Part shown: positions 6,533 through 60,680 of the stretch, one piece after another
Numbering within the stretch: position 1 is the stretch's first letter
Layout of the letters: every line of letters starts with the position of its first letter
Source of the DNA: Dasypus novemcinctus
Taxonomy: Eukaryota; Chordata; Mammalia; Cingulata; Dasypodidae
Direction of reading: 5' to 3'
Length of the DNA: 64,000 nt
NCBI RefSeq assembly: GCF_030445035.2
Contig: NC_080678.1
Span: forward strand, 66,789,087-66,853,086
Translations under genes and position numbers: made by a program
The notes under the pieces: model-generated
Databases searched by the model: none
What the model was told of the DNA's origin: nothing
Seen by the model: the letters and a program-made list of their open reading frames with translations, nothing else

Positions 6533-6628
6533 GTGCTAACAATGCTTGGTAAACCGAAAAAACCTCGATCAGCTTTTAACATTTTTGTGTCTGAATGCTT
6601 CCAAGAAGCCAAGGAACATTCACCACAG
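6533..6628 (+). CDS. TFAM: TFAM exon 5 (start of HMG box B)
   Basis: TFAM is the mitochondrial HMG-box protein that compacts mtDNA and, by bending promoter DNA, recruits the transcription machinery. This 96-bp exon (phase 0 at both ends) is preceded by a T-rich tract and AG at 6531-6532 and followed by GTAATA. It encodes 32 codons (residues 148-179), beginning [16 protein letters not shown], the linker end and first helix of HMG box B. Human TFAM has Tyr162 where this has Phe; Asn163 is kept. There is no stop or frameshift. It is the first TFAM exon in the window, yet exons 1-4 lie 43-46 kb downstream on the same strand, so the gene appears permuted or duplicated here. An intronless pseudogene is excluded by the introns. 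Confidence 0.95.
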
Positions 6629-7744
6629 GTAATAGAACTGTATTTTTTTTTTCAATTTTTGTTTAGTTTTAAAAATATTTGACAGGAAGTTCCAAGGGTA
6701 CCATGTCATTTAAGATGGTGAAGAAAAGTAGCAAGGTACAGAAACTAAACTTTCTATAGGGTCCTCTTTAATGGAAATCTTTTAAAGAAAGGTCCTTTTT
6801 ATTTCATATGACATACAATTATTTTATATGCATTGTTGCCAGTACTACATACATTGTCAACTTTTCTAATTAAAAATCATGAAATTTTCTGATTCATAGG
6901 GATGGCAAAGTTCTTCTGGAGAGTTTTCTAATCCAGCAGTTTTTAATGGTTTTCCAGTCACTGAAACTGTGAGAGTAGAGGTGCAATGTTATATACTGGG
7001 AATTAAGGATCATCTATTGCTCCATATTGCTTCCTTTAATAAAATTTTGGTTAGGCCAGTTGGAATGTGTTATAAACATAAATATCCTCATACAAAAAGT
7101 GTCAAAGACTTAAAAAGCTTATAAATCATGGCTATGGCTTAGGCATTTCTTTTTTTAATTCTTAGAATGTCCAAATTATCATTGCATTTTTCCTTTTATG
7201 GTGTGGTAAAAGTGGAAGATCAGCACTCTAACCCTTGCCAATCAGAGATGAAGTTTTTTGGCACCCTGCCTTTTTGGGTTATTGGATCTGTAGTTCATTT
7301 CACAAAAACCTGTTTTATATACAATTTTTAAAATGTGTATATATGTGTATATATATATATATCATAATTTCCCTTTGCAGCATCCTTCTACTGATTTGCT
7401 CCCTTTGGGATTTTAAATTCAATTTCTGTGGCTTACATTACTGAAATGCATTTTTAAGTGGACAGTGCTCAGTTTTTATTAATTTGAATTCCTCTTATTG
7501 AAGCAAAAGGATTACCTATAAGAATGTGTTGTCCTACTATGTTATTAATTTAGTGTGGATTTAATTTTCTTGTCAATATAAAGATCATATGGTAGAAAAT
7601 CCTAAAACAGTGGTTTGTAACTTTGGCTGTGCCTTAGAATGATCAAGAGAAGATAATGGTTAGGTTTAACCTTAGAAATTCAGATATAACTCAACTATAT
7701 CATTTTTATTCATTGAAAAATGTTATATTAATACAAAATAATTT

Positions 7745-7935
7745 TTTAAACAAATCTGTTTTATTGATACATATTAATAAAGCATACAATTTGATTGAGG
7801 GGTGAGGAATTTTCTTGGTTTTTTTTGTTTATTATTGAAATAATGAAAATGCGCTAATAATTGAGGTGATGAATGCATAACTGTGATTATATCAGATACC
7901 ATTGATGATTCTATCTGGATGAATTGTACAAAATA
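7745..7935. mobile_element. L1 3'-end relic with inverted halves
   Basis: 7745-7800 matches the antisense L1 3' end (compare 40880-40925: 'TTTTATTGATACATATTAATAAAGCAT'-type text). 7836-7935 matches the sense 3' end (compare 58545-58640: 'AATAATGAAAATGC'-type text). The halves face each other, so this is a rearranged or twin fragment. Confidence 0.5.
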
Positions 7936-8820
7936 ATTTTTAAGCCTTGTTGTAAAATGTAGCAGTTTTCACTGCCCTGCCTTGTCTCCTATTCCACAAG
8001 CAGACACATTCTAATGTTTTAGCTGATTCTTATTTCCATATCTTTAATAATGCCCTTACATTATTATTTTCTCTAAAATTCATTGTCTTGTATTTTGTTA
8101 TTGTTTGTTCTTTTTTTCTTAGTAATTATCAATAATTTATCCTCAAACTCTTCAGTTTCATCGGCTTTGAATATATTTAAATGAATTTGATATTCATTAA
8201 TTTCACTCGAACCTCTGATTTTTTTCCAGTCTTATATGCCTAGTTTACAGGATAACATTCTGGGATCTTCCTTCATTCTCTTCCTTGTACTTTTGCTTGT
8301 GTTGTTGTCTTCTTTCTTTGTTTACTCATTCTATAATAGAATAGCATCTCACCCAGTAAAGGTGCATGGGAGATTAACTATTTTGAGTCTTGCTTGTCTG
8401 AAAATGTCTTTATCTTCATATTTGATAGTTTCACTGGGCATAGAATCCTAGGATAGAAATCATGTTACTTTTAAAAAAAGTGTTGCTTCTTTCTCCTCTT
8501 AGTCTTCTGTATTGCTTTTGAAAAATACAAAGCCATTTTGATGATTGGTTCTATGAATGTGATGTGGTCACTATTTTCTCTCACTCCCTGGATGCTCTTA
8601 GGATTGTCCCTATGTTTCCTATGTTCCTTAGTGTATTTGGTGTGAGTGTATTTTCATCCGTTTGGTACTAGGTGAGCCTTTTAATCTGGAAACCCTTATC
8701 CTGCAGTTCCAGGAAAGTGTCCTCCAATTTTCTTGTCTTTTTTCTACTGTTTTCTATCTCTTATCCCTTTTACTTTTCATTATAGGATATTGAGTAAGTT
8801 TGTACTAATCTCCCAGTTTT

Positions 8821-10975: not shown

Positions 10976-11755
10976 AATATAAGATTGAATTATGTTCATA
11001 ATGGATAGGCTAAAGAAACCAATTAGGTCTCAGCACCTGAAACTGTTGTAAAATTAGAATGGGTAAAATTGGTAAACATTTTTTCTTTTTTTTTTTTTAA
11101 CCTATGGACTTCTGCCAATTTAATACATTATGTATTAGTGTCTTGTTTTAGAAAAGTCAAGCAAATATAAGTTCATGTTAAGTTTGTTTTTGTGTTTAGG
11201 AACTACTGAAGATCAAAATAATGTGTGTAAATGTAGTAGTGAATTATTTTACCTTTTGATAAAGGTAAAGGAGACTGTGAACTTTTTTTTTAAAACCAGA
11301 TGATGACTCTGAAAAGACTATCTTGTTTCCCTGTATTATGGAGGCAGGAGTTTGCTTTTCAAAATTATCCAAAATTTAGAAGCCAGTGTTCTATGATATA
11401 ATTGTATCTTTTTTAAAAAGCAGCCAGAACTCATCTAGGTAAAATTCCAGTTCCTATGTATAATTCATAAAAGGGACTGAGAGATTTATAGATGTTTTCC
11501 TCATTGTCTTCTTTTTCTTAACATAAAACGTAAAAAATTATGTACCAAATCTATGCATTGCATTTTATATTGTACAGAATTTAAAAAAATCCATCTTTAA
11601 TTTTATGTTTTTCCTAATTATGTATTTTAAGGTGAAACATTGGTTTTATAGTGTTTTTCTTTTTTTCATTTTTAAACTGGGGAATTTAAAAAAAAATTAT
11701 TTTCTCTTTGGTAGATGAGTACATTTATCCAAAATAAAGAGACCTTGTCTATGTT
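10976..11755 (+). other. TFAM: TFAM 3' UTR (proposed)
   Basis: AT-rich sequence directly after the TAA with no recognisable interspersed repeat until the SINE at 11770. Taken as the 3' UTR up to just past a canonical AATAAA. The true end could be further downstream, since alternative poly(A) sites cannot be excluded without transcripts. Confidence 0.55.
11733..11738 (+). terminator. TFAM: Candidate TFAM poly(A) signal
   Basis: AATAAA 758 bp after the stop codon, followed by the G/T-containing 'GACCTTGTCTATGTTTT'. It is the first canonical hexamer I see after the stop and lies just before a SINE. Confidence 0.5.
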
Positions 11756-11769
11756 TTAAAATGAGAGAT

Positions 11770-12138
11770 GTAGGGAAGCAGATGTGGCTTAAGTGATTGG
11801 GCTCCTGTCTACCATATGAGAGGTTCCGGGTTCGGTTCCCAGTCAGGGTGAGCTGGCCCAAGCTGAAGGCTTGTGTAACAAGATGATGCAACAAAAAAGA
11901 AATAGAGGAAAGACACTGAGAGGCACAACAAAACCAGGAGCTGAGGTGGCTCAAAGTGATTGAGTGCCTCTCTCCCTCATTAGAAGGTCCCAGGATCAGT
12001 TCCCAGTGCCTCCTAAAGAGAAGACAAGAAAAGAAGACAAGTAGACATAGAAGAATGCACAGCGAATGGACAGAGAGCAGACAGAGAGCGCAAGTGGCAA
12101 GAGGGACGGGAATAAATAAATTAAATGTTTAAAAAAAT
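11770..12138 (+). mobile_element. Dimeric sense SINE with two tRNA-like heads
   Basis: Two tRNA-like units in tandem: 'AGCAGATGTGGCTTAAGTG' at about 11777 and 'GCTGAGGTGGCTCAAAGTG' at about 11940. Each has its own B-box-like 'GGTTC' or 'GATCAGTTC' text, and one A-rich tail with AATAAATAAA follows. Target duplication AAAATGA(G/C)AGAT at 11758-11769 and 12139-12150. Confidence 0.8.
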
Positions 12139-12228
12139 AAAATGACAGATTTAAAAACAAAATTCTTTAGAATTGAACCATCTATTTCTAAATTTTCTAC
12201 AGAGCATCTGAAGGCCTGTATAAGGAGA

Positions 12229-12547
12229 GTCAGCTACAGCCCATGTGCCAGATCTGATCTGTGGGCCAAATCCAGCTGGCTGCCAACTATGCGTGGCCTG
12301 AATTGTGTTTACATTTTTTAAAGGTTAAAAAAGAACATTTCATGACATAAAAATAATAGAAATTTAAATTTCAGTGTTTATAAATAAAGTTTTATTGGAA
12401 TACTGTCATGCTAATTCTTTTCCTTATCATGTATGGATACTTTTATGCTACAACAATAGAGCTGAATAGTTGCTATAGAGTTTGTAGCCCAGAAGACTTA
12501 AAATGTTTATTATCTGGCTCTTTGCAAAAAGCATTTGCTAACCTATG
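12229..12547 (-). mobile_element. hAT-Charlie-type nonautonomous relic
   Basis: Carries the widespread mammalian text 'TGGGCCAAATCCAGC', 'AATAAAGTTTTATTGGAA' and 'TATTATCTGGCTCTTTGCA'. These are diverged forms of a placental-wide hAT nonautonomous element. The ends are eroded and no target duplication is resolved. Orientation is assigned by the usual consensus and is uncertain. Confidence 0.55.
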
Positions 12548-14071
12548 TTCTATAGTATAGCATAGTGTGACTGGTATGCCAGTGTACTGACGTGTTAAAT
12601 ATTGTTGTCAGCTCTTTCCAATATTCTTTTTATAGAATCATCTCCCTTAAGACAAAAAAGGTCAAGTCATTAAATAAGCTGGACAAACTTGCTTCTTGGT
12701 ATAGCAAAGAAAATAGCCCTTAGTCTCAAATTATGTTCCAAAATAATGAAAAAGATTCATATAGTGTGGAATGAGATTCTCTCATGTGGCTCAGTAAAAT
12801 GTATCTTAAAAGGGTTTTCCAGGTAGCATTTATTAAAATCTTACTGTTGTCAGGAAAGGAGCCATCTTTCTTTACCATTTGTTTATCCTCACAAGACAGA
12901 CAAGCAAAGATTTGCAAAATCCACATTACCTTTTTAAATAGAATAATTCGTTTTTCATAATCAGTTCACAGGTAGATTGTAGATCTCCATAAAGTTTTTG
13001 AAGATTTTTGTTATTTGATAAAACATCACAAAAAGATGACTTGTGACATACTGAGTTTTGTAAAGTAAGGACTGAAGAGAAAAATATGGCTTAAGAGGAA
13101 ACAAAGTTTAAATATTTAAAGGTGGGTATTTTCAAATAACTTGGGGGTGTGGATACAGAGTAAAGCCTTCTGTTGGTAAAATAGATACCAGGAGTCTGAT
13201 GTCAGAGTACTTTGAAGGGAGGGAGGAAGTGTACTGTGTCTACCAGTAGTCTTTCTCAACTGGTTTCCAGGAGAGAATTAATCCCTAATTTCCTATGGCA
13301 TCCATTGCCTTTTTGTAATGAATTAACTTTTGTGCATGTAGAATGGTAATAATTACCTAAAATCCTTTGGGGAATGGAGAAATTGTCACACATCATTTAC
13401 TGCATTCTGTCCTTCAAACGACCCCAGGGAGCCCATAGGAGTCAGTGTTTCTAATGACTTATAGAATGAGTGAGATAATGGATGAGTAATAATATCTTTC
13501 TTCGCAATTACCTTGCAGGGAAATTTCTCCCCTTTGAGCTCTTTTTGTATTTAATCACCTGCACCATTTTATAGGTAACAAATTCAAATTATATATAGTG
13601 AAGTTCATTAGTAGATTCTTAAGTGTTTACAACTTATGTTAATATAGGGAAAAACTATAAAACAGTGAAAAGGGCCAAAGCAAAATCATTTTATGATAAT
13701 AGTAAATTTTACTTCATTTTGTTTCTAAAGGATTATTTTTAATATTTTAAATAGGATAATCCAATTACAAGCCTTTTGTTAATAACTGCTACATGTGGAA
13801 GAATAGCATGCCATTACCAAATGCAATCCAATTGTAACAATGTAAACAAATTTTCTGTTAGAATAAGAACTCAACCCCAATAACCAGTGGCCACTCATAT
13901 AAAGCCTTACTAAGGGTTTTCTTAAATTAACCCAACAAAGCAGTTGATGTAGTCGCTTAAGAGAGTTAGGGGCAAAGATGCTGAAGAAAGAGAGTTTATG
14001 GTTTTGTGGTAAGTTCTGAGCAGTTACAATTTTTACATTTTTTTTTTCAAGTGCCAATATATATATTTTTT
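12548..14071. other. AT-rich intergenic stretch, nothing recognised
   Basis: No repeat, splice-flanked exon or credible ORF is recognised on either strand. The open frames of 66 and 92 codons at 12726 and 13779 on the minus strand have no recognisable motif. Confidence 0.6.
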
Positions 14072-14487
14072 ATTTTTTTAAAGATTTATTTTATTTGTTT
14101 CCCCTCCCCTCCCGCCCCCCGCCCGAGTTGTCTGTTCTTTGTGTCCATTTGCTGCATGTTCTTCTTTTGTCTGCTTCTGTTGTCAGCAGCATGGGAATCT
14201 GTGTCTCTTTTTGTTGCATCATCTTGTTGCGTCAGCTCTCCGTGTGTGCGGCGCCATTCTTGGACAGACTGAACTTTCTTTCCCGCTGGGTGGCTCTCCT
14301 TACGGGGTGCACGCCTTGGGAATGGGGCCCCCCTACATGGGGGCACCTCTGCATGGCACGGCATTCCTTGTGTGCATCAGCACTGCTCATGGGCCAGCTC
14401 CACATGGATCAACGAGGCCTGGGTTTGAATCACGGACCTCCCAAGTGGTAGACAGACTCCCTATCCACTGGGCCAAGTCCGCTTCCC
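14072..14487 (-). mobile_element. DAS-III-like SINE
   Basis: Full-length antisense copy with the C-run next to the T-rich tail and the tRNA-like head at the right ending 'CCAAGTCCGCTTCCC'. AT-rich target duplication TATATATTTTTT at 14060-14071 and 14488-14499. The overlapping 92-133-codon frames here are all SINE-derived. Confidence 0.84.
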
Positions 14488-14499
14488 TATATATTTTTT

Positions 14500-15854
14500 T
14501 AAATAATGGAGTAAAAGTAAAAAAAAAAATTACTTTCTGATGCTTACTTAAAGCATACGCTGTACAAATTAGCCTACTGTAATTATGTAACTTTGTGAGT
14601 GCTTTTGATTAAGTCCTTGTTTGAAGGTGTCATCTTTTACAAGGTATTAGAGAAACGGTGCTCACTGGAACACAGAGACTGATGATTGCAGGCAGCAAGA
14701 TCTCTCAGTGGAGAAGCTCTTTCAATGGACGGGGTCTGAAGAATAGATTCAGCCTGCTCATGGAAGGTGGATATGACTTTATACAGTACATCAATAGGTG
14801 GGGAAATGTTAGTCTGCATGGAGGGGGTTAGAGTCCCAAGTACAGCCTGGGCCAATAAGGGACTGTAAAAGTGAATTCTTTTGTGTATGGCTAGGGGGTA
14901 GTAGACTAGGAAGTAGGATATTCTTGGAATGCAGGAGGGTGTGATGGCGCCTGGGTCCCGAATGGGTGAGGGTCCTTATCTGCTCCATTCTCACTGTGAT
15001 ATGGCTCCTTTGTTTGTTCTTGGGAGATGCACTGCCTTTCTGCATGTAGGCTGTAGCTTGCTTAATTGATTGGAATTGTGTCACAGCTTGATGATCTGTT
15101 AATCATTGCAAACCTTATAAGTGGGAACCTCGAACACAAGGTAAATGTTTTTTTTTCTTAATGTGTGTGTTTAGATTTCTAAGTTTTAGAATTGATATTG
15201 ATGTACTACTGGAGAATTTAAAGTAACTAGAAAATTGTATTGATATTTCTGACACTATCTAAGAAACATCACTATCAGATTATGCTAAAACAAGAGAAAT
15301 AAGTTTTATATAGTTAGGTGAAGATATCAATTAGTTTCCCTTGATTTTTCCAATACTTATAAAATATTCTCTTCCTTTCCTCCCCTCCTAGTCACCCTAC
15401 TACCTTCTCTTCCTTGCACTAAGTGATCACAGACAAATTTAGAAATATTTTAAATACAGAAAGTGTTTGTGTTTTGAAATTTCGAATGACCTTCCTTTAT
15501 AAATTGAAACTCTGTGGTGATTCTAAAGAAATTTATTTACACCTTTGAACTTTAAAATTTTCCAAACAGAAAGTAAACTATATAAAGCAAGTAGCATCAG
15601 TTTCTCATATAGTTCACAAAGTACTTGTGGTAATTAATTAAATCACAGATTATATTTAATGGAAAAATATAAAGTACAATAGCATTCTCTAGTACCTTTT
15701 AACTGCACCATTGGCGAAAGAGCTAAATACTTAAATTTGACCCCATTCAAGAATTTTAGGTAAAAGACATTTTAAGAAATCACCCTTACCTAATGGTTTC
15801 TGATTTAATTTGTGATATGCAAGAAAATATTTGAATGTATCCTTTTTTCCCTTA
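14500..15854. other. Intergenic stretch with one unexplained GC-richer block
   Basis: Mostly AT-rich unique-looking sequence. A block at about 14640-15130 has a different texture (GC-richer, few A/T runs, 'TCCCAAGTACAGCCTGGGCC') and holds two minus-strand open frames of 72 and 91 codons. I do not recognise their products. The block could be the remains of an endogenous retrovirus, an unusual repeat or unique sequence. Confidence 0.5.
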
Positions 15855-18800
15855 CTGTTTCAGGCCAGGGTAGCCATAATGTCTGAGGCTCTCTTCTTTC
15901 ACCCAACCCCCACTCATGGGGTGGAAGTTCCTACCTCAGGTACAGCAGGCCAAGAATACTGGGCACTGGTAGGGTGGAGGTCCCATGCTGGGAGAAACAA
16001 GCTGAGAAAACAAGGGACTACCAATCTCACCCAGTGGCCCACACATAGAATGGGGGTATCAGTGTAAGACAAGGGGTCTACTGTCTCTGCAGCTCCAGAG
16101 CAATGGCACATGACTCTGCCAAAGAGAAGAGGCAAGCATAAAAATAGCACTGTAATAATAGTTCTCTCTAAGAAGACTCACTTTATTTGGAAAAAATTAT
16201 GGGTAAGTTTAGTAGGACTAAGGACTCTCTGTCGGAAATAATGGAGAAGGTCTTGGTGGTGTTCTAGTCTTCTAAATCTGCCAGTGCAAAATATAAAAAA
16301 TGGGTTGGCTTTTATAAAGGGAATTTAATAGGGTAACAGCTTATAGCTCTCAGACTGCAAAAATGTCCAAATCAAGGCATCATCATACTTCCTCACCAAA
16401 GTTCGGCTACTGGTCAGATACTGGGCTCCTGCCATGTGCCAAGGCAAAATAGCGGCTCTGGCTTCTCCAGGTTGCATTCTCTTCAGGTTCAGCTGCGGGG
16501 AATCAAGCACATGGAAAGGCTCATCTCTTCAGTTCTGAGCTGCTCTGTGGGTCTAGCCTCTGAAGGCTTCTTTGTCTTTATGCGACTTCGGTGTTTCTCA
16601 TGTGGCAGGGTCAAAAAGGCGGCTTCTGTTCTCTCTGTGTTTCTGTTTTCATTGCTCAGTTTATAAGTCTCAGAAGAGGGTGGAGGCTTAACCTGGGTCA
16701 TGCCTCACTCAAGCAGGCTAATCAAAGGCCTTCACACCCACTGGAATGGATTAGTTTAAGAAAAAGTATCTTTTCTGGGAGTCAAACACACCCAAAAACC
16801 TTCAAACTGTCACTGCAGTTAAGAGACTGGTAGTTACATGATCACAATAAAGGAAAGGTACACCAGCTAGAAGTTTAATGGAAACAAGGGAAGAAAGAGG
16901 GAAAGAAAAGCTGTTTTGGGATTAGAACAAGTATTAAAAACTGCACTCGTGGGGTTAAGACTGCTACTGCAAAGGGACTTGTCTTCCATTGGATTGGACT
17001 GTGGAGCAATTTTAGCTCTAGAATGTCAACAATAGAGCAATAAGGTAACAATTAGTGAAGGCTGCTGCCTGTGATACCAGTAGAGGCAGATGAGTCACAA
17101 GCTTAGCAGGTTGATCAGGGAAAGAGATGAGCACAATCATCATGGGAAGAAGAGGAGTCAGGGTGACAGCATACCAAGATATCTCTCAAGAGGGTGGGAT
17201 CAGGCTGCACATGGGGAAATTGACTTCACTGAACCAATTCAGCCTAAAATTGACAAAAAGCCCCAGTTAGGAAGCTCAGTATGCAGAGTTGCTACATTAT
17301 ATTATGTAAAATATTGGCTTAAAATCAAAGTGTGATCCATACTTGAGGCAAAAGCCACGCAATAAACTGCTTTGAGAGGACCCAGTTGTTGGACTTAGCA
17401 CCAAAGACTTAACAGCAGCTACTATAAATATGCCCAAAGAACTAAATGAAATGATTAAAGTCTTAGAGGAAGATTTGAAAATGTCTCATCAAGAGAATAT
17501 CAATAATGAAACAAATTACAAAGAACCATGTGGAAATTCTGGATTAAAAAAGTGCAATGAAAAATTAACTAGAGGGCTCAAAAGTAGGTTTTAATTGTCA
17601 GAAGAATATCAATGAACTTGAAGATAAATAGATGTTAGGCATTCTGAAGCCTAGAGAGGAAAAAATAAGGAAAATGAACAGAGCCTCAGAGAAATGCTGG
17701 ACACCAATAAGCTCACCAACATAAATATAAAGCATGTACTATAAGGAAAGGAGAAAAAGGAAGTGGCAGGAAAAAATAGCCAAAGGAGGAATCATTAAAA
17801 ACGTCCAGATTAATGGAAAAACATTAATCTGCACATTTAAGAAGCACAACAAATTCCACATAGGATAAATGACCAAGAGGTCCACACAGATATACATCAT
17901 ATTGAAAATGGTGTTGGACAATGAGATAATCTTATGGGCAGCAAGAGATTCATCATCAGATACAAGAGAACTCCAATAAGAAACAGAGTTCTCATCAGAA
18001 ACAATGAAGGGCAGAAGGGATCAGGATGACAGGAACGGTGCACAAAGAAAAACTATCAACCAAAAACCTTATATCCAGCAAAACTTCAAAGATGAAGGCA
18101 AAATAAAGACATTTCAAGATAAAGATGGAGAGAATCATTGCTGGTAGACCCACCTTACATGAAATACTAAAGGAAGTTCTTCAAGTTTAGAGGAAGTGGT
18201 GCCATAAAATAATTTGAATCCATTTAAAGTGAAAACTCACCAAAGGAATTCCTCTAGAAAATATTTACTGTGTGCAGAAGAAAGCAGTAAAGGCAGAACA
18301 GAGGAGTGAGAAGGATGTGAGACATATGCAAAATGTAAAATGGAAGGTGTAAATATATCTGTATCAGTAACAGCATTAAATGTTAGTGCCAGTCAAAAGG
18401 CAGATTGTCATATTAGATTTAAAAAAAAATTCAATCATATGCTGGCTACAGGAGCTATACTTTAGACTCAAGATACAAAAAAGATTGAAAGTAAAATAAT
18501 GGAAAGAGATATACCACATAAAGGGATTCTTAAAAGAGCTGGAGTAGCTATGTTGATATCAGATAAAAATGAATTTTAAAATAAAATATGAGAGATAAAG
18601 AGGGTCATTTTATAATGGTACAAAGGCCAATCTATCAGAAAGATATAACAATTATAAGTATATGCACTTAACAGATCACCAAATACATGAAGCAAAAAGT
18701 GGTAGAATTTAAGGAAGAAATATTTGCTCAGTAATAGCTAGAGATTTCAGTTCCCCATTTTCAGTAATGGATAGAACTCCAAAAGGCAGAAGACCAACAA

Positions 18801-27232: not shown

Positions 27233-27275
27233 ATACTAGTAAACTGAATCCTGCAGCATATTAAAGGAATTATAC

Positions 27276-35281: not shown

Positions 35282-35297
35282 CAACATTTGGTATTTT

Positions 35298-40075: not shown

Positions 40076-40879
40076 ACCACCCCCTCCTCATGTTTTGTTG
40101 GTACTACTACAACCTTTTATCTTTTCCTTATATCCTTGAGGATACTTGTATCCTCAAGTTCATCATTATATAGAAGTGACAAAGTATTCAGTTTAAAACC
40201 CAAATCAGATCTTCTACATTCTCAGCCTTAAAAGGTTTAAATAGTTCCCCACAGCCTCAGCAGGGGTTTTGCAGAGGAGCCTGAGGAAGAGAAGGGAGAT
40301 GCTAATGGATTAGTCTTTGAACTTCTACTTCAAACAGCACAGTGCAGCTCATTTTTATCTGATTCATATATCAGGGTCCTGTGGTTTTCAGGTTCTTCCA
40401 CCCCTTCACCCCCCCAGAGTTAAACCATCAACCAACAGAATGACATGCTAAGTCCTTACAGTCTTCTTGTACTGACTCTGGCTTACATTTTCAGACATCT
40501 GCCACTCCCTGCCTCCCACAAAACTTCCTGCATTCCCCAGTAGCTCCCAACTTCTCCCTACTTCCCGTATAGAGAATATTTCTCACTCTCAAACTTTGAC
40601 CAAACTGTCCATTCTACCTAATGCCCTCTGTCCCTTGTCCTTTAAATCTCTAATCCCATGCCACTTCTGTCTTCTCTGTTGAGGAAATAAGTAACCCTCA
40701 TCAGTGCTACCAGAATGCCCAGTGTGCATCTTTATAACTGTCCTTACTACTCTTAGTATCACTGTGAGTTTTGATATTTCTTTCCCATTTTTGGCACCCT
40801 AGCACCTAGTACATTGTCTGGCACATAAATACTCAAACATTGAATCAATGAATTACCTGAGCTTTGGATGACATACAGA
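40076..40879. other. Intergenic, no gene recognised
   Basis: Unique-looking sequence. A short ancient L2/MIR-like tail is suggested at 40795-40856 by 'TAGTACATTGTCTGGCACATA' and the following 'TCAAACATTGAATCAATGAA'. Nothing else is supported. Confidence 0.5.
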
Positions 40880-42305
40880 CTTTTTAACAAATCAATTTTA
40901 TTGATACATATTAATAAAGCATAAATCCATCCAAAGTGTACAATCAATTGAATTTGGTATAATCACATATTTGGGCATTCAATACTTCAATCATTCTTAG
41001 AGCATTTTCATTATTTCAATAATAATAAAAAACAAACAAGATTCATCGCCTCTCAATCTCTCTATGCGTCCCCTGCCATACATAGCTGCTATTCTTTTTC
41101 CTTTTCTCTAGTATATTTGTATTTATATTTTGTAAAAACAGTCTCATATATGCAATATCACCCATATTTGTGTTTTACATGAGGTTTACTATCTTATACA
41201 GTCCTTGGTTACAGTTTTGGGCTTTCCTTCTAGCAGTATACATAACCACTGTCATGCCCATATGTTAGCATTGCTAGTTACAAACACCATCATATGCTTT
41301 AACCCTATTTCTATTCATTTAAAAAAATTTACTTAAAATCTTTTTACCAATTTTGCAGAGATTAAACCTCAGTTCTCCATTGTCTAACCACATTCTTTTC
41401 TCTGGTGACTTATATTCAATCTATTAACTCCATGGGTTTGCTAATTATATTTAGTTCACAAAAGCAAAGCCATATAATATTTTCCTTTTGTGCCTGGCTT
41501 GCTTCTCTCAACATAATGTCCTCCAGGTTCATCCACATTGTCATATGCTTCACAATTTCATTTCTTCTTACAGATGAATAATATACTATCGTGTGTATAT
41601 GCCACAGTTTGTTTATCCACTCTTCAGTTGATGGACACCTGGGTGTTTCCACCTCTTGGCAATTGTGAATAATGTCGCTAAAAACATCACTATGCAGATG
41701 TCTGCTCATGTCACTCTTTTCAGTTCTTCTGGGTATATACCTAGCAGCTGTATTGCCAGTTTGTGGAAATATATCTAACTTCCTTAGGAACTACCAAACA
41801 TACTTCCACAGTGGCTGTACCACTCTACATTGAATAAGAGTTGCTATGTCTCCACACTTTCTCCAACTCTTGTAGTTTTCTGTTAACAAAACAGAAAACT
41901 AGTGGCCATTCTAGTAGGGGTGAAATGATACCTCATTGTAGGTTTGATTTGCATTTCCCTAATAGCTAACAATGTTGAGCATTTTTCATGTATTTTTTTT
42001 CTTTTTTTCTTTTTGCCATTTGTATGTCTTCTTTAGAAAAATGCCTATTCAGGTTTTCTGCCTATTTTTAAATTGGGTCGTTTTTCTTTTTATTGTTGAG
42101 TTGTAGGATCTCTTTATATATCATGCATATTAGACCCTAGTTAAATGTGATTTCCAAATATTTTCTCCCATTGAGTAGGCTACCTTTTTACCCTCTTCAC
42201 AAAGTCCTTTGAGGTGCAGATGTGTTTAATTTTGAGGGGTCCCATTTATCTATTTTTTTCTTTTGTTGCTCATGCTTTGAGTGTAGTGCCTGCTGACCCA
42301 TATAA
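40880..42305 (-). mobile_element. L1 3' region, antisense fragment
   Basis: Begins with the antisense L1 3' end ('ATCAATTTTATTGATACATA') and runs through the 3' UTR to ORF2 C-terminal text ('TGAGGTGCAGATGTGTTTAATTTTGAGG'-type, in parts). 5' truncated at about 42305. Confidence 0.75.
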
Positions 42306-42386
42306 TCCATTTTAAAATAGAATAGCTATATTTATTTCATATAATGCTGCTTCAGTAATTGCTAAAAATAATTCTGATAGGCTCTT

Positions 42387-42813
42387 TTTTTTTTAATATT
42401 TATTTATTTTTAATTTATTTCTCTCCCCTTCCCTCCCCCGCCTACCCAGTTGTCTGCTCTCTGTGTCCATTCACTGTGAGTTCTTCTGTGACCGCTTCTA
42501 TCCTTATCAGTGGCACAGGGAGTCTGTGTTTCTTTTCGTTGCGTCATCTTGTTGTGTCAGCTCTCCGTGTGTGTGGCACCATTCTTGGGCAGGCTGTACT
42601 TTCGTTCGCGCTGGGTGGCTCTCCTTACTGGGCGCACTCCTTGCGAGTGGGGCTCCCCTATGTGGGGGACACCCCTATGTGGCAGGGCACTCCTTGTGTG
42701 CATCAGCACTGTGCATGGGCCAGCTCTGCACGAATCAAGGAGGCCCAGGGTTTGAACCATGGACCTCCCATGTGGTAGGCGAATACCCTATCCATTGGGC
42801 CAAGTCTGCTTCC
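42387..42813 (-). mobile_element. DAS-III-like SINE
   Basis: Full-length antisense copy. Perfect 13-bp target duplication CTGATAGGCTCTT at 42374-42386 and 42814-42826. The 139- and 121-codon frames over it are SINE-derived and not genes. Confidence 0.88.
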
Positions 42814-43089
42814 CTGATAGGCTCTTAATAATTAGGACTACACGCAGACTTTGTTCTAATTTGAAATCATTCATAAACTAGTTTGGATAGCTGGGAACTC
42901 TTAACAAGCTATGAATAGCTCTATTTCTCTTTCTGTCTCTTTTTGTAGTAGCCCTTCCTCCTTTCCTTTTATATACTGATTTTAAAGGTAAACTCTGTTG
43001 ATGTGATTAGATCTCAATGAAATCTTACTATCTATCATCTATCTACCATGCTATCTGTACTGCCCTCAAGTAGCTTTGAACCTATTGAG

Positions 43090-43345
43090 GGAAAATATGC
43101 ATACATAAAAAATATGGTTAAGAACCACAGCGGTCACCATTGGCCCCTACCATTGGTGGAGTAACCAAGCACAGTTGGGGGCCCCTCCCCTTAGCATTAG
43201 CAAGGGGGAGGAATAATTAACAGTTTAAAAGGTAAGCAGCACCACACAAGGCAGAGCTCACTCTCTGTGCACCAAATCTTGGTGTGTATTTCTGTCCTTC
43301 TCTCCTATTTCTTAGCAAGCTCTGTTCTTTTTACTGGTTTAAAAC
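43090..43345 (+). mobile_element. Possible LTR fragment
   Basis: GC-richer block with a TATA-like TTTAAAAGG near 43225. It is followed by R/U5-like text ('GCAGAGCTCACTCTCTGTGC', 'GGTGTGTATTTCTGTCC'). No TG...CA ends or duplication are resolved, so this is a suggestion only. The surrounding 42827-43554 has no gene. Confidence 0.35.
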
Positions 43346-43371
43346 AAAACAAAACAAAACAAAACAAAACA
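43345..43371 (+). repeat. (AAAAC)n microsatellite
   Basis: About six head-to-tail AAAAC units. Confidence 0.85.
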
Positions 43372-43554
43372 CCAGAATAGTATATGATAAGTCCCTAGTA
43401 AGTGATGATACATACAGGCTCGCACACTACAAAAGAATCCAATGAAGATGTTTTGAGCTGGAATGATGTAGTGCATTCTGAGGGATGGTCCAGTATCATC
43501 GGAAAAGCACAGGACAATGAATTGAAAGACCAGGTGTTCACCTCCACAACTTAC

Positions 43555-44003
43555 TGTTTTAGTTTCCTAGTTGCTTCAAACAAAAACCATTAAATGGGTT
43601 TGCTTAAACAGTGGGAATGTATTAGCTTAGAGTTCTGAGGCAGTGAAAATGTCCAAATCAAGGCATCATCAAGGCAACACTTTCTTCCTGAAAAAGCAGC
43701 TGCTAGCAATCCTTGGCTCCTGTCACAGGGCAAAACAAATGGCAGAGTCTGCTGGTCTCTCCCTTCTCTTCCAGGTTCTGTTGATTTCAGTTTCTTGCTT
43801 ACGTGGCTTTTGTTTTTTTTTTAATCTCTCTATATTCATTCAGTTTATAAAGGACTCCAGTAAAAGGATTAAGACCCATCATGAATGAGGTGGGTCAAAC
43901 TTTAACTGTAGTAGCCTCCTCAAAATGTCCTCCTTATAATGGGTTTACACCCAGAAGAATGGATTAAAGAACATGTTTTTGTACACAGCTTCAAACCACC
44001 ACA
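43555..44003 (-). mobile_element. MaLR-like LTR, family 2
   Basis: Starts TG ('TGTTTTAGTTTCCTAG'), contains 'AAAATGTCCAAATCAAGGCA', and ends 'CTTCAAACCACCACA'. It is the same family as 16260-16812, about 100 bp shorter. No internal viral sequence is attached. Confidence 0.6.
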
Positions 44004-44227
44004 CTAATTATTGCCACACTATGACTTGGGCTTTCTGAACCTCATTTTTCATTTGTAAATTGGGAACCATGATGATGATAAATCAATTTGTGAATCATAT
44101 AATTAAGTTAACTTATTTAAAAGTGTTTTGAAAACATTAAAATGTGATTCAGATCTAAGGTCATGTTGTTTTACTTTTTCATCACCTACTAGTGTTTATG
44201 CTCAAAAACAAATTTAAGAAATGTTAG

Positions 44228-44725
44228 TCGAAAATGGGAGGATTGCATCCAGCATCCATGTGGAATCTGAGCCTCCTCTTGACATAGAGGTGCAATGGAC
44301 ACTACCAATCCAATGTCCACAAAGAAGAGGTGGCATTGGATTGGGAAAAGTGGACATGGTGGAAGATGGGTGTGGGGAAAGGCAGGAAGAGATGAGAGGT
44401 GGAGGCGTCTTTGGGTCATGGAGCTGCCCTGGATGGTGCCTCAGAGGTAATCACCGGACATTGTAAATCCTCACAGGGTCCACTGGATGGAATGGAGGAG
44501 AGTATGGACCATGATGTGGACCATTGTCTATGGGGTGCAGAGGTGCCCAAAGATGTACTTACCAAATCCGATGGATATGTCATGATGATGGGAACGAGTG
44601 TTGTTGGGGGGGGAGAGGGAGTGGGGGTGGGGATGAATGGGACCTCACATATATATTTTTAATGTAATATTATTACAAAGTCAATAATAAAATAAAATAA
44701 AAAAAAATTAAAAAAAAAAAAAAAA
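44228..44725 (+). repeat. Family A repeat, 5' truncated
   Basis: Sense copy of the 3' part of family A ('GTGGGGAAAGGCAGGAAGAG', 'TCATGATGATGG', 'GGACCTCA', 'TTTTTAATGTAA'), with an A-rich tail at 44690-44725. Target duplication AAATGTTAG at 44219-44227 and 44726-44734 shows it was retroposed already truncated. Confidence 0.75.
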
Positions 44726-44924
44726 AAATGTTAGAAGTTCAGTAGGAACAGGGGAGCAATATTGGTTATTTAATATATGCCGATATTATTTATCAGGGAG
44801 AGGAGATGACAAAGAAGTAATAGGACCTTGTTACAAATCTTTTTGTTTGGGAATATATACACTAAACCAATAATTATTAAGATGCTAATAATAATTAATA
44901 ATAATATAAGGATACAATAGCCAC

Positions 44925-45165
44925 CATTTTTGAGCTTTTACTATGTGCCAGGGACTCTGATTAAGAACTTCTTGTACATTATCTAATGTATTTTTCACAA
45001 AAATCCTAAAAGTTCAACCATTATTGTCCCCATTTTACAGAAGAGAAAATTTTGGGTCAGAAAAATTATTTGGCAACATCACAAAGCTAATAAAAAACAA
45101 AAGCTGGATTTGAACCCATACCTGTCTTACTTTTAAGCCTATATCTTACCCAGTAACCCATAATG
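44925..45165 (+). mobile_element. MIR SINE
   Basis: Carries the MIR core: 'TACTATGTGCCAGGGACTCT', 'CATTATTGTCCCCATTTTACAG', 'TGGATTTGAACCCA'. Ancient mammalian SINE in sense orientation. A further L2/MIR-like tail ('GCCTGGCATAGAGTTGGTACTC' type) is near 45404-45460. Confidence 0.85.
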
Positions 45166-46088
45166 TTCACAAGTCAGACAAAAAGCAAGTGTAAACTCAG
45201 AGCCAAATGAAGTGATTTTATCTATCTATTAAATCAGAAGAAGAAAGATGTAAATAAAATTTATTTCAAGAAAGGGTGAAGTGAGACATGAAGTCAGAGT
45301 GGAAGTAGAAGGGCCATTTCTTGTATATTATGATATGAGAATTTGGACTTGTTTCTGTGGGTAATCAGGAGCCACTGAAAGTTTCTTGTACAGGAATATA
45401 ATTGCCTGCCTGGCATAGAGTTGGTACTCAAGCCATACAAAAAAACCCACAAATGAATGGATTTGCTTTTAAGAAAGATTGATCCAGGGATAGTGTGGAA
45501 TATGGTTGGGAAGGAAATATGACTGAAGTAGGGAAACTACTATAAGCTCAAGAAAAGACAGTGGAGATCAAACCAGTGACATGCAGGAGCAGGCTATATT
45601 GGCTTGGAGAACCAAATATGCACATCTGTTCCTAACTTCAGGATCACTGACATGTTGATAGCTTTCTTTTAGAACAGTCAGTTTACCAGCATATCACTGA
45701 CCTGAACTAAAGCATCAGTAGTGGGGATGGAGAGGAGGGAGTGCATACGAGAGGGATCAATTGGATAGAATGAGCAATACTCATTCATCAGTTGGCTCAA
45801 AAAGGAGGAATGTCAATGGGAAGATTCTAAGATGGTTTATCAAGTTATTGACTTGGTGACTGGTGGGATATTGACACCTCTTATGGAGAAGATGAGTTCA
45901 AGATAAGGGAAAGATAATGAATTCTGTTCAGAGCATTTTGAAATTGATTGCCTGAGGGAGGTGATGGTAGAGAGGTCCAGCAGGCATTTCAGTTACACGG
46001 ATATGGAATTGAAAAGAAGGCAAGGATTCAATGATATAAGAATCATGAGGATATAACTGAGAGTTAAATTCAAAGTAGATGAACTTTT
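45166..46088. other. Intergenic, little recognised
   Basis: Apart from the short L2/MIR-like tail near 45404-45460, no repeat or coding feature is recognised. Confidence 0.55.
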
Positions 46089-46926
46089 TAAAAAATTTTA
46101 AAGATTTTATTTATTTCCTCCCCACCTCTCCCACCCCTCATTGTTTGGCATTCCCTATCTGCTCTTTGTGTACTTCTGTGTCTGCTTGTCTTCTCTTTAG
46201 TCGGCACCAGGAACCAATCCTGGGACCTTCTAGAGTGGGAGAGAGACACTCAATCTCTTCTTGCTACCTCAGCTCCCTGGTCTGCTGCGTCTCTTATTGT
46301 CTTTCCTCTGTGTCTTTTTTTTTTTTTAAGATTTATTTATTTATTTATTTCTCTTCCTTCCCCCCCCCCACCCCGGTTGTCTGTTCTCTGTGTCTATTTG
46401 TTGCGTCTTTGTCAGCTTCTGTTGTTGTCAGCGGCAAGGGAATCTGTGTTTCTTTTTTGTTGCATCATCTTGTTGTGTTAGCTCTCTGTGTGTGCAGTGC
46501 CATTCCTGGGCAGGCTGCACTTTCTTTTGCGCTGTGCAGTTCTCCTTACGGGGCACACTCCTTGCCCGTGGGGCTCCCCTACATGGGGGACACCCCTGCG
46601 TGGTAGGGCACTCCTTGTGCACATCAGCACTGTGCATGGGCCAGGAGGCCCGGGGTTTGAAACGCAGACTTCCCATGTGGTAGACGGACACCCTAACCAC
46701 TGGGCCAAGTCCGCCACCCTCTGTGTCTTTTTTTGTTGTGTCATCTTGCTGCGCCAGCTTTCCATGCAGGCCAGCACTCCTGCATGGGCCAGCACTCAGC
46801 TCAAGTCAGCTCTCTGCTCAGTCCAGATCGCTGTGCAGGCCAGCTTGCCTTTCACCAGGAGGATCCGGGGATCGAACCCTGGACCTCCAAATGGTAGACG
46901 GGAGCCCAATCACTTGAGTCATATCC
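46089..46926 (-). mobile_element. Dimeric SINE interrupted by another SINE
   Basis: The outer composite SINE (46089-46320 and 46718-46926) resembles the copy at 21611-22019, with two heads ('CCAATCCTGGGACC' and 'GGGATCGAACCCTGGACC'). Target duplication GATGAACTTTT at 46078-46088 and 46927-46937. The inner SINE splits its body. Confidence 0.82.
46321..46717 (-). mobile_element. DAS-III-like SINE nested in a SINE
   Basis: Antisense copy inserted in the outer SINE with target duplication CCTCTGTGTCTTTTTT at 46305-46320 and 46718-46733. Part of the usual body between 'GCATGGGCCAG' and 'GAGGCCCGGGG' is missing, a small internal deletion. The 147- and 175-codon frames across this region are SINE-derived. 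Confidence 0.85.
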
Positions 46927-46937
46927 GATGAACTTTT

Positions 46938-48130
46938 AATGAAGTAAAGGGAAAGGCTGTAGTAAATCTTTATGTTTTAAATAGTAAAAATAAGTGAAAC
47001 CATATGTGTTTTTGATCAAAGATAGTCTGAGTAAGTAGGTAGAATTACGTTTTCTTTGCAAATAATGCATTTAAAATAAAATTACCATTGCAGTGTAAAT
47101 GAAACTTAAGGAGGATTGCTATCTGATGAAAATAGAAATGTTATAGATCAGATTTATAAAAGCTTTATAGAAAGATTTATCAAAAAGTCAATTAAAACAA
47201 TGAAAATTTAAAAAATATATATCCAAAAGAAGTTATAAAATATCAAACATATGGAAAAATAGACATTCTAGAAAAATAGAGGGAAAGCAAGTTATTTTAG
47301 AATTTAGCTAAAATGTAATGGTAAGGAATTCTATCCCATATACTACCTCCATCTTGGCACTGTATTGTAGTTGTTTTCTTCTTTGCCTCTGCCACTAGAC
47401 TTTATTCTCAGAAAGAGAGACAGAGGATAGACAGAGAGAATGAGGGAAAGGGCAAGCTCTGTCCATTCTCTCTCTCTCTTTAGGGATTTGTACCTAAAAT
47501 GTACTCATGGGAAAAAAAGAAAAGAAAAAAACAACCTAAAACTGTTTCTTCCATGAAACGACGGGAAGTTTGAACAGATGACCAGGAAGATCACTTTCAA
47601 TCATGAGATTCTATGCAAAGGGAAGTTGTGATAATTGTTTACCACTTAAAAGTAAAAGTGGGCTAAGACCTTTGTGGCTCCAAGGGTAATGTTTCAAAAT
47701 GACAGAAAAGCAACATATTCTTAGCCCCTATTTCACTCCTAAGAATTTTTAAAAACAATTACAGGTATTCAGCAGAAGGTAAAGGTTGTCTCAGGAAGAA
47801 GCTATCTTTGAAATAATCGGAATTGAAAAACTGGAAGGGACCTTAGATATCTTTAGTTTGTCTTCCCGATTGTTTTCATGTCATGGCCCATAAAAGAAAT
47901 GCTATTTTTACAATACAATGGAGTAAACTGGAGGGGATTTGGTAATGACATGGGGCTTGAAAAAATAGTGTTTATACTAAGTAAAACTGAGAAAAAAAAT
48001 TTAAGTAGGTTATTAAATAATATGTCTGAAATTTCCCAATTATTTCAATGGAAATAAATGTATATCAATCAATATCTCAAGGCATACTGTCATACATTCT
48101 CAGGGCTTTGGTTGGGAGAACTTTGTAGGT
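46938..48130. other. Intergenic, no gene recognised
   Basis: AT-rich sequence. A short piece near 47825-47860 ('CTGGAAGGGACCTTAGATAT') resembles an ancient mammalian repeat. Nothing further is supported. Confidence 0.5.
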
Positions 48131-48132
48131 TG

Positions 48133-48620
48133 TGTTGGTCAAGGTTCTCCAGAGAATCTGAACCAACCGGATATATGTGTATAGATATAGATGTAAAACT
48201 ATATATGTGTGTGTGTGTATATATATATATAAAGAGATTTATTAAAAGGAATTGGCCCATGTGTTTGGGGGTCTGGCAAGTCCTGATTCCTTATGACAGG
48301 TTGGAAGCTGGAAATCCCAGAAAGATGATGTTGAAGTCTTTACTCTGAATCTGTAGGAAAAGCCAAGGAGGAAGGGAGGTTGTAGTGTCAAGGCAGAATT
48401 CCTACACATTTTTGCAACCCTCAGTTCTGGCTTCTAAGACCTCCAACTGACTGGAAAAGCCCTACCCACATTTCTGAGAATAACCTCTTTTAATTAAAGT
48501 CAGCTAACGGTAGATGTCGTTCCTATCTACAAAAATCCTCCACAGTCACAACTAGGCCTGTATTCGACCAAATAATTGGACACCATAATCTAGTTAAGCT
48601 GACACAAAACAACAACCACA
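48133..48620. mobile_element. MaLR/MLT-like LTR
   Basis: Carries 'GGTTCTCCAGAGAATCTGAACC', 'GAGATTTATTAAAAGGAATTG' and ends 'AAGCTGACACAAAACAACAACC', the text of a widespread mammalian MaLR-type repeat. A (TG)n/(TA)n microsatellite at 48200-48232 sits at the variable site typical of this repeat. Orientation is not assigned. Confidence 0.5.
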
Positions 48621-48949
48621 TTTGCAGAGAAGGACGCCCTATCTTTGTGTCAAGATTTTAATGTCAGTGCAGGCATGAGAACTCTAGACTTCGGCTAAGT
48701 ACTCCAAGTCTCCTCCGCCCAAATTAAATAGGGCTGGATGTCAGACTTGAGACTGCCAGGGATACCTGCAGTGGATGGGACGATAGTCTGAATTACTATT
48801 GCTTTAAATTGGTCCCAAGACTACCTACATTAGACCTTGTTAAAATCTAGGGAACTTGTTAAAAACGCAGATTTATAGGTCCCAAATAGACATATTGAAT
48901 CGGGCTCTGGTTAAGGCCCGGAACTCTGCATGTTCAGGTTTGAGAACAA

Positions 48950-49517
48950 GGGTTTTAAGCGCTCTCTGCTCTATCTTTGAACTCGGAGCTCTAGCCCTCA
49001 CTTGAGAGGAAGGGCTTTGGTGGCGCGCAGGAGTCGCTACGTTAACCTCTGAGCAGCGCTGGCGCTCAGCCATCCCGCGTCCTCGGCGTAAAATCGTCTG
49101 TTACGCACTAGCCATTTGTGACGTCACGGCAAGACGTCAGCCAGTGCCCAGTAGGGTGAGGCCGCCGCCGTCCCCCCAGCAGCCAGCCGGCCCCGCTGAA
49201 GAACCGACTGCAGGGGCTCGAGGGCCAAGGCGGCTCTGCAGCGCCCCTTCGAGACCAAGGCCCTTTCGGGGGAGACTCAGGCTGCCCTGTACTTACACCG
49301 CACGAAGCCCCTCATCTTCTTTAGCAGTCGCTGCCGCGGCCCACTCCGTTTACCAAGCGGATGTTAACTGCTTCCCAAAGCTCCTTGCGAGAGGCGGGCA
49401 TGATCACATACTCGCGTGTGTCGCGCGAGGGCTCCGGTTGTGGTTGTTCGGACTGTGTTTCTGAGCCAGGAGACTCCACGAGATTGGAGCCCTGCCACTG
49501 CGCTGTCCGCAGGTGCG
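48950..49517 (+). promoter_or_regulatory. TFAM: TFAM CpG-rich promoter and 5' UTR
   Basis: The window turns sharply GC- and CpG-rich from about 48950 to 49640, with no interspersed repeats, as expected of a CpG-island promoter. A palindromic CRE, TGACGTCA, is at 49119-49126, with a second half-type GACGTCA at 49133-49139. A GC-box-like GAGGCGGGC is at 49391. There is no TATA box. I do not see a convincing NRF-1 palindrome. The transcription start is not fixed by the sequence; the 5' UTR would end at 49517. Small open frames here (65-106 codons on both strands) are typical of CpG islands. Confidence 0.8.
49119..49139 (+). promoter_or_regulatory. Paired CRE-like sites
   Basis: Full palindromic CRE TGACGTCA followed 13 bp later by GACGTCA, about 390 bp upstream of the TFAM start codon. 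Sites of this kind bind CREB/ATF factors. Function here is inferred from the motif and its position in the CpG island. Confidence 0.6.
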
Positions 49518-49618
49518 ATGGCGCTTTTCCGGGGCGTGTGGGGCTTGCTGAGTTCCCTGGGAAAGTCGGGAGCCCAGCTCTACTCCGGCTGTGGAAATCG
49601 CCTGCGCTTTTCCCTTAG
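49518..49618 (+). CDS. TFAM: TFAM exon 1 (mitochondrial targeting sequence)
   Basis: ATG at 49518 in GTGCGATGG (good +4 G). The exon encodes MALFRGVWGLLSSLGKSGAQ and then LYSGCGNRLRFSL, ending in phase 2 at AG|GTAGGA. The N-terminus has Arg/Lys and hydrophobic/Ser residues with no acidic residue, as in a cleavable matrix-targeting presequence; human TFAM starts MAFLRSMWGVLSALG. This start is preferred because of the match, the CpG island and the presequence. In the window this exon follows, rather than precedes, TFAM exons 5-7 by 38 kb. Confidence 0.95.
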
Positions 49619-50174
49619 GTAGGATGTCTCTCTGCCTTCTCAGGAGGCGGCAAGGCCCAGGTCGCTCTGGGGCCAGAATGTGGACGCTCTCCTCCACTTC
49701 TTGCACCTATAGGAGGTCAGGGCCAGGGTGGCCCTTTGATCCAGACCTCGACCTTGCCAAGTGATGATGGCTTTGACACAAGGCCTTACTCGAGTAGTAG
49801 TCAGTGCTTCCTGCCGCCTCCCACCCCTCTCCTCCCGGCCCTATCCACCGGATAGCCAGCGAGCACCCTTCGGTGTCCTCGGTGAAGTCGCTCCAAGTCT
49901 CAGAACTTTTCTGTTGAGTAGGCGGGTCCAGGAGCTAGAGTCTAGATGCTTTCCTCCAATCTGCCCTTGCTCGGAGGTAAGGGCTTTGAGATTCAGTTTT
50001 GCAAGGCTCTGCCCTTGGTTAGTACAGGACTTCAAATAAGTCGCTAGTTTTCTTGTTGAAGATGTTAAAAATATTGCACCTTAATGACATCTTATTTGAA
50101 ATTTGTGTTCATATATATATATGAGTATTGGCAGTTAAATACCTGACACTGGGTTTCTTTTAATTTATGTATAG
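49619..50174 (+). other. TFAM: TFAM intron 1
   Basis: 556-bp GT-AG intron, GC-rich in its first part. It holds open frames on both strands (92 and 64 codons) with no recognisable domain. Confidence 0.85.
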
Positions 50175-50293: not shown

Positions 50294-51856
50294 GTAAGCA
50301 GTTGGGAGCTTTTCTCTGATATGCAAATAAAAAGGGCACAAAGCAGTTAAACCGCAAATCAGATTTATCCTGCCGTAGAGTCTAGTCACTGCAGAAACAT
50401 AAATATTAATCATTCTTTGTTTGCTTTTCTGTAAAATAGGAAGCATAACATATTTTATACCAAAAATGTGCTTTAAATGTATGTAAACTAGAGATAAAAC
50501 TTTATATTTAATATAAGATAACATATATATGCATAAATAAGCAAATTTTATTTATAGAAATATATAAATGAGAGCTAATGAAAGGTATTTTTAAAATAGC
50601 AGCATGTAGAATGAAAAGTGCCCAGAGAAGAGGATGAAAATGAGTTTTGGGCCTAGTTGCCATTGGTATAGAGGACCATTGTAATCATTTCATCTCTGAT
50701 TCCCTTTCTTTTCTGTCTCAGGGAATTTGTTAATGAAGTTGCAATAAAATAATTTATGTGAAAATGTTTTGTAAGTTATAAAGCTTTTTGCAAATTCCTG
50801 CTAATTTCAGGAGTGCTTTGTGTGTGTGTGTGTGTGTTTTAACCAGTATAAGGATTCTTGTCTTGATTTTCTGAAAAAAGATTTCTAGTTAGGATGTTCA
50901 TTGAATCCGTAGAAAGACTGTGGAGCCCTCATTTTGGGTTATAGTGTAAAGGTAAAAACTAATAATAGCCAACTTTTGTTTATGAATTCTAAAACCCTTT
51001 CACATGCAGTATATCATAGGGCACTTGTTAAAATCAAAGGAGCCATTATAAAAATACTGATATTATAAAGGATTAGTTTAAAGAAGTGGGGAATAATGGG
51101 TTGATTTTAGAATAACTTGGTAGGTTTCTAAATGGTATTTCTGTAATTGAAATACAGGGTGGTGTATATGAGTCAAGACTACATTTTATTTTTCAGTTAG
51201 TTTTTATGGACTTAAAAATTCCAGAAAGACTTGAAAGAAATGCTTTGGTTAAAATACAATGCAAAAAACTTGAAGCAGTTGGATCACCCAACTACTTAAG
51301 GTAGTAATCAATTTCGAAGGACTGTTTTTCCTACATGATGTATTCCTTCTTTTTTTTTTCAAAAAAAAAAAGGCACTGGGCACAGAACCTAGGCCCTCCC
51401 ATGTGGTAGGCAGGAGCTCAATTGCTTGAGCCACATCTGCTTCCCAAAGATTTATTCTTCATTTATTTATATCTCCCTCCTTCATTGTTTGTGCTCACTC
51501 TCTGCTCTCTGTATCTGTTTGTTATGTGCTATGTCTGCTCATCTTTTTAGGAGGTGCTGAGAATTGAATCTGGAACCTCCCTTGTGGGAGGGAGGCACCC
51601 AATTGTTTGAGCCACATCTACTTCCTTATTCCTTCTTAATTATTACATAATGGACTTAAAAATATTGATAATCATATTTCAATTATTTGGATAAGGAAAA
51701 GTTAAATCACTGCTTTATATTGTGTATGGTATAGATGTGTCTATGATGTAACTTGCTCCGAGAGCTGTTGGATTGTACATTCCTGGAAGTTTTTCAAAAT
51801 TAATCCTGAGACAAATAAAATTGTGAGATCTTTTTTCATTTTATTCTAATCCACAG
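50294..51856 (+). other. TFAM: TFAM intron 2
   Basis: 1.56-kb GT-AG intron. It contains a short (GT)n run at 50816-50838 and one dimeric SINE at 51352-51626. The rest is AT-rich with nothing recognised. Confidence 0.85.
51352..51626 (-). mobile_element. Dimeric antisense SINE
   Basis: Two antisense tRNA-like heads (ending about 51447 and at 51626, both with 'GAGCCACATCTRCTTCC'). Target duplication TATTCCTTCTT at 51341-51351 and 51627-51637. It lies in TFAM intron 2, 230 bp before exon 3. Confidence 0.82.
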
Positions 51857-51927
51857 ATGCAAAAATCCCAGAAATAATTCAAAAAATTGCCCAGCAATGG
51901 AGGGAACTTCCTGATTCACAGAAAAAA
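51857..51927 (+). CDS. TFAM: TFAM exon 3 (HMG box A)
   Basis: 71 bp, acceptor ATCCACAG and donor GTAAGC. Completes the Asp codon from exon 2 and encodes AKIPEIIQKIAQQWRELPD and then SQKK, the second helix of HMG box A with its conserved Trp. It ends in phase 0 at residue 97. Confidence 0.95.
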
Positions 51928-52329
51928 GTAAGCACACAGGTTTTCAACTTTGCTGACCAGCTTTTTTGCTGTTAGGGATAATTGTCATATCTTTGAAGGG
52001 ATGAGGTAACAGACTTTTTTTTTAACATCCATTATATTTTGACCTATATAAATGATGAGAAGAATACTGATATATAGGATATGGAGGTAAAGGGTTGGCA
52101 GCATTTTGAAATTGGAAGCTAATTACTGGACTATGATCTTGCTTAGCATGTGTATTAAAAATATATGTTTTTAATCCATATACATGTGATCCCAAGGCAT
52201 ATTTTCCATCCGGTGGTTTAGTCTCTTGATCTGAAGTCCTGCCATTGTCTTTCCCTAGCAAGTATACTAAGTTAAATTTCCTGGCAATAGTTTGACTTTT
52301 AAAAATTTTATTTTATTTTTTATTTCTAG
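51928..52329 (+). other. TFAM: TFAM intron 3
   Basis: 402-bp GT-AG intron with a T-rich tract before the acceptor TTTCTAG. No repeat is recognised. Confidence 0.85.
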
Positions 52330-52479
52330 ATATATGAAGATGCTTACAGGGCAGACTGGCAGGCATACAAAGAAGAAATAAACAGAATTCAAGAACAGCT
52401 AACTCCAAGTCAGATCCTATCTTTAGAAAAAGAAATCATGCAAAAACGTTTAAAAAAGAAAGCGTTAATTAAAAAAAGA
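52330..52479 (+). CDS. TFAM: TFAM exon 4 (end of HMG box A and basic linker)
   Basis: 150 bp, phase 0 at both ends, donor GTAAGT. Encodes [20 protein letters not shown], then [20 protein letters not shown] and [10 protein letters not shown]: the third helix of HMG box A and the highly basic linker (residues 98-147). Joined to the phase-0 exon at 6533 it would continue exactly as human TFAM does. No exon 5 is recognisable in the remaining 11.5 kb of the window. Confidence 0.95.

Positions 52480-58521: not shown

Positions 58522-60680
<2,159 letters not shown>

Follow-up and report, generated by a model that had tools for sequence, protein, structure and literature searches.

Permuted TFAM exons in a nine-banded armadillo sequence very probably mark the middle of a head-to-tail gene pair

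How can the seven coding exons of TFAM (transcription factor A, mitochondrial) stand intact on one strand and in the order 5-6-7, then 1-2-3-4? This question is raised by the stretch of nine-banded armadillo (Dasypus novemcinctus) DNA analysed here in its full length of 64,000 bases, hereafter the window. The first-pass annotation had described this exon order, with good splice sites throughout, and its coordinates were confirmed: exons 5-6-7 occupy 6533-10975 and exons 1-2-3-4 occupy 49518-52479, all on the + strand, with AG at 6/6 acceptor ends and GT at 6/6 donor starts. Its remark that no N run marks a gap also holds, the N count being 0 over the 64,000 bases. Spliced in gene order, the exons yield 741 nucleotides, that is 246 amino acids and a stop codon, and in the PDB the joined product aligns with human TFAM over its full length, residues 1-246, with an E value of 2.5e-109, which excludes a chance resemblance. 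A tblastn search of the window with the joined protein recovered the seven exons, each a single time; the remaining matches were the HMG boxes matching each other (E 0.018 and 0.033) or had E values of at least 0.65. We give a probability of about 0.96 to the reading that two TFAM genes stand head to tail on one chromosome and that the window covers the middle of this pair. The exons are listed below with the annotated armadillo protein, P0002 (copy A) or P0001 (copy B), that each encodes.

6533..6628, + strand: coding exon 5 of TFAM copy A (P0002); differences 0/32 vs P0002, 1/32 vs P0001
10310..10366, + strand: coding exon 6 of TFAM copy A (P0002); differences 0/19 vs P0002, 5/19 vs P0001
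10829..10975, + strand: coding exon 7 and stop codon of TFAM copy A (P0002); differences 0/48 vs P0002, 9/48 vs P0001
49518..49618, + strand: coding exon 1 and start codon of TFAM copy B (P0001); differences 0/34 vs P0001, 1/34 vs P0002
50175..50293, + strand: coding exon 2 of TFAM copy B; differences 0/39 vs P0001, 8/39 vs P0002
51857..51927, + strand: coding exon 3 of TFAM copy B; differences 0/24 vs P0001, 5/24 vs P0002
52330..52479, + strand: coding exon 4 of TFAM copy B; differences 0/50 vs P0001, 8/50 vs P0002

The two proteins were retrieved by a protein search with the joined window sequence. P0001, named 'transcription factor A, mitochondrial-like isoform X2' (copy B, TFAM-like), has 246 residues and 94% identity to the joined query; P0002, named 'transcription factor A, mitochondrial' (copy A, TFAM), has 245 residues and 91% identity, and lacks one residue in exon 4 (residue 133) relative to copy B. 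Window exons 5-7 (residues 148-246) show 0/99 differences from P0002 and 15/99 from P0001, whereas exons 1-4 (residues 1-147) show 0/147 differences from P0001 and 22/147 from P0002. Because each half matches a different annotated protein exactly, the two halves do not belong to one gene. Of the three options put forward by the first-pass annotation, the one in which the window spans the junction of two tandemly duplicated TFAM genes is thus borne out, and the other two, a broken gene and contigs joined in the wrong order, fail on their shared prediction of a single protein for both halves. Its sum of 246 codons survives in part: the boundary between exons 4 and 5 is in phase 0 and the total is correct, but a single TFAM of 246 residues is not what the sum describes, since 147 of the codons come from copy B and 99 from copy A. 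Neither annotated armadillo protein equals such a hybrid, copy A having 245 residues.

For each of the two proteins the longest contig given is 138,290,767 bases; their placement on the same contig rests on this equality of sizes, and as they were possibly annotated from the assembly that holds the window, they are not independent evidence of its contiguity. Copy A exons 1-4 and copy B exons 5-7 are known here from the annotated proteins. Both proteins are full length, and PF00505 (HMG box) was found in two stretches of P0001 and two of P0002; with two HMG boxes, a linker, a C-terminal tail and a length near 246 residues, they have the make-up of TFAM. Their N-terminal 42 residues, where a mitochondrial targeting signal would be expected, carry a net charge of +5 (A) and +7 (B), and acidic residues are absent from this segment in both. 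When P0002 served as the query of a second search, the same pair of armadillo proteins came up. No third named armadillo TFAM appeared among the best 120 of 239 matches to P0002 or the best 120 of 287 matches to the joined query, some rows of which are unnamed.

This assignment bears on each of the readings that keep to a single gene. A genuine rearrangement that broke the animal's sole TFAM gene would account for the exon order taken within the window alone, but is opposed by the exact assignment to two proteins and by their full length; moreover, loss of Tfam is lethal in mice, and we give this reading almost no weight. The placing of two haplotypes of one gene end to end is a frequent fault of diploid assemblies. 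Here, however, copies A and B are 85% identical, and a protein divergence of about 15% (37/246 columns), together with the residue missing from one copy, is far beyond the allelic range; this divergence is too large for two haplotypes, and false duplication can be set aside with near certainty. Very improbable, too, is a misordering of contigs from one single TFAM gene. The many old repeats that flank both sides might mislead an assembler, but a single gene predicts one matching protein, and the match of the halves to two proteins, with crossed differences of 22/147 and 15/99, in effect excludes the misordering; furthermore, PMC9316749, published in 2022, already lists two armadillo TFAMs in its accessible text.

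In the tandem reading, copy A would begin to the left of the window and end at 10975, and copy B would begin at 49518 and end to the right of the window. The two halves lie on the same strand, 38.5 kb apart, with no TFAM exon found between them, and the exons appear permuted because the window edges cut two neighbouring gene copies, a layout that is unremarkable for a pair of genes. Introns 1-3 are present in copy B and introns 5-6 in copy A, and a CpG island precedes copy B; since introns 1-3 and the island are kept, copy B is no retrocopy. The pair would instead have been produced in the armadillo line by duplication at the DNA level, with introns and promoter island retained, probably through unequal exchange between repeats, and the copies may since have diverged, partly in complementary places. 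The TFAM made from each copy would be imported into mitochondria and coat mtDNA through its two HMG boxes.

The non-coding parts of the window are then assigned as follows.

1..6532, + strand: intron 4 of copy A, 3' part (6.5 kb or more); old interspersed repeats, no exon 4 by tblastn
10976..49517 (38,542 bases), no strand: spacer from copy A to copy B; no TFAM exon found, diverged repeats
52480..64000, + strand: intron 4 of copy B, 5' part (11.5 kb or more); no copy of exons 5-7 found

The spacer would comprise the 3' UTR and flank of copy A, the putative duplication junction and the 5' flank of copy B. As no copy of exons 5-7 was found in 52480..64000, copy B exon 5 must lie outside the window. 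The repeats in intron 4 of copy A are of types that we take to be L1-like and SINE-like. The window was also aligned with itself in search of a recent duplication, which gave 133 pairs with identities of 63.8-93.0%. None of the 87 pairs that span 150 bases or more exceeds 86.1%, and a recent duplication within the window was rejected on this ground; the four pairs at or above 87% measure 43 to 133 bases. A repeat finder returned short families with identity up to 91%. The intron 4 parts of copies A and B have eight pairs in common (67-73% identity), six of which are repeats, because each side has a match elsewhere in the window over at least 98% of its length. For the other two, 2277-2568 / 56014-56302 and 4591-4855 / 54453-54702 (both 72-73%), the left side is matched elsewhere in the window over 58% and 48%, respectively, and these pairs could be remnants of a common intron 4 or old repeats.

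Several further features of the window may be recorded. Within the spacer, 25900-27300 is GC-rich (GC 0.60 and CpG o/e 0.56 over 25900-27000) and consists partly of repeats occurring elsewhere in the window. On the - strand, a fragmentary reading frame at 59933-60277 resembles GABARAPL2 (E 1.8e-19 in the PDB, across some 50 residues; ATG8 in Pfam), with a likeness that weakens after roughly the first 40 residues; it is probably a truncated retrocopy within intron 4 of TFAM copy B. An open frame on the + strand at 63462-63893, at the window edge, carries a reverse transcriptase domain (RVT_1, E 6e-14) and is part of an L1-like element. No convincing UBE2D1 exon was found in the whole window, the best match to an approximate query sequence having an E value of 1.1. 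Rfam matches and the tRNA scan of the window both came to 0.

Upstream of copy B lie the following elements.

48900..49700, + strand: CpG island and presumed promoter region of copy B; GC 0.61, CpG o/e 0.79
49119-49126: perfect CRE (TGACGTCA), from the motif scan

The CpG o/e ratio reaches 0.84 over 49001-49650; the value for the window as a whole is 0.21. The preservation of the island over such a time suggests that copy B may be unmethylated in the germ line and active. The promoter of copy A falls outside the window. The motif scan of 48900-49600 returned this one CRE and CRE half-sites, and no strict NRF-1, ets, Sp1 or YY1 pattern was found in that interval; the absence of these patterns disfavours a simple likeness to the human TFAM promoter.

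In a tree of 22 rows, copies A and B are sisters (support 100/99) inside the xenarthran group (99/96). The branch common to the two armadillo copies measures 0.107 changes per column, copy A's own branch 0.084 and copy B's 0.110, which, under even rates, would date the duplication to about the midpoint of the armadillo stem. The split of sloths and armadillos lies near 65 million years. The TFAM duplication would accordingly be roughly 30 million years old at even rates, and younger if the copies accelerated.

When the 37 differing columns were polarized with sloth, anteater and elephant, 27 proved to have changed in a single copy (13 in B and 14 in A); seven had changed in both and three were without a majority. 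The changes unique to one copy number 7, 0 and 6 for B and 2, 8 and 4 for A in exons 1-3, exon 4 and exons 5-7, respectively. This uneven distribution has a permutation p of 0.003 for the three parts, a grouping picked after the data were seen, and of 0.008 for all seven exons. The changes unique to copy A thus cluster in exon 4, which encodes the end of HMG box A and the linker. Exon 5 (6533-6628; residues 148-179 of P0001) differs between the copies at 1/32 residues, and six changes in it are common to A and B and absent in sloth, anteater and elephant, although most of these six residues occur in some other mammals. The contrast of six shared changes with one difference gives a Fisher p of 0.0027 before correction for seven exons, and it is possible that exon 5 was evened out by gene conversion after the duplication. 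At highly conserved columns, A and B depart more than most of the 54 compared rows (those of 240-253 residues, out of 120), but modestly. Of the 71 columns conserved in at least 95% of the 53 other rows, five show a departure in B and four in A, two being common to both, a comparison biased against the two copies because both were excluded when the columns were chosen. Among the 54 rows, 32 show no departure and three besides A and B show at least four; Tamandua P0033, which has another start and was aligned outside the 54, departs at eight.

In mammals, the copy number and compaction of mtDNA are governed by the dose of TFAM. Because of this dose sensitivity, and because the two copies behave differently in human cells, the armadillo pair is of some interest. 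Two diverged, full-length and adjacent TFAM genes constitute a natural test of which parts of the protein serve packaging, transcription and species fit. They also call for caution: the window may be misread as a broken gene, and a hybrid of both halves may be mistaken for one protein.

That two copies exist and differ in function in human cells is already known, at least from the accessible text of a 2022 paper in Cells (PMC9316749), which ascribes two TFAM orthologs to the armadillo genome, one functional in human cells and the other not. There, the 'armadillo-like' TFAM XP_004473261 supports human mtDNA replication, and XP_004473258, which carries a one-residue linker deletion, does not; an armadillo-human chimera with this deletion was still functional in human cells. 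As far as that text goes, the linker deletion alone is therefore no explanation for the failure of XP_004473258. The identities to mature human TFAM printed there are 69.5% for XP_004473261, 64% for XP_004473258 and 70.1 for pika, and we computed identities to human of 69.5% for copy B and 65.0% for copy A, with 70.1 for the pika control. Judging from this shared value of 69.5%, we infer that XP_004473261 is P0001, of which the window encodes the first 147 residues only. XP_004473258 and P0002 both have a one-residue linker deletion, at residue 133 of P0002 and hence in copy A's exon 4, outside the window; their identity is likely and not proven, since 64% is printed and 65.0% computed. A search of literature listings, mostly of openly available papers, turned up neither the tandem layout nor the complementary changes. 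It is conceivable, though in our judgement unlikely, that the tandem armadillo genes have divided the tasks of TFAM, one serving mainly packaging and the other promoter-bound initiation, with exon 5 gene-converted; the function retained by the chimera argues against such a division (PMC9316749, accessible text).

TFAM-like proteins are also annotated in Choloepus (P0041), Tamandua (P0033 and P0124) and Carlito (P0031 and P0098). The Choloepus protein, named 'low quality', is so close to Choloepus TFAM (branch 0.024) that it represents a separate, younger copy. The two TFAM-like proteins of Tamandua are listed with differently sized contigs; so are the TFAM and TFAM-like proteins of Choloepus and of Carlito, unlike the armadillo pair.
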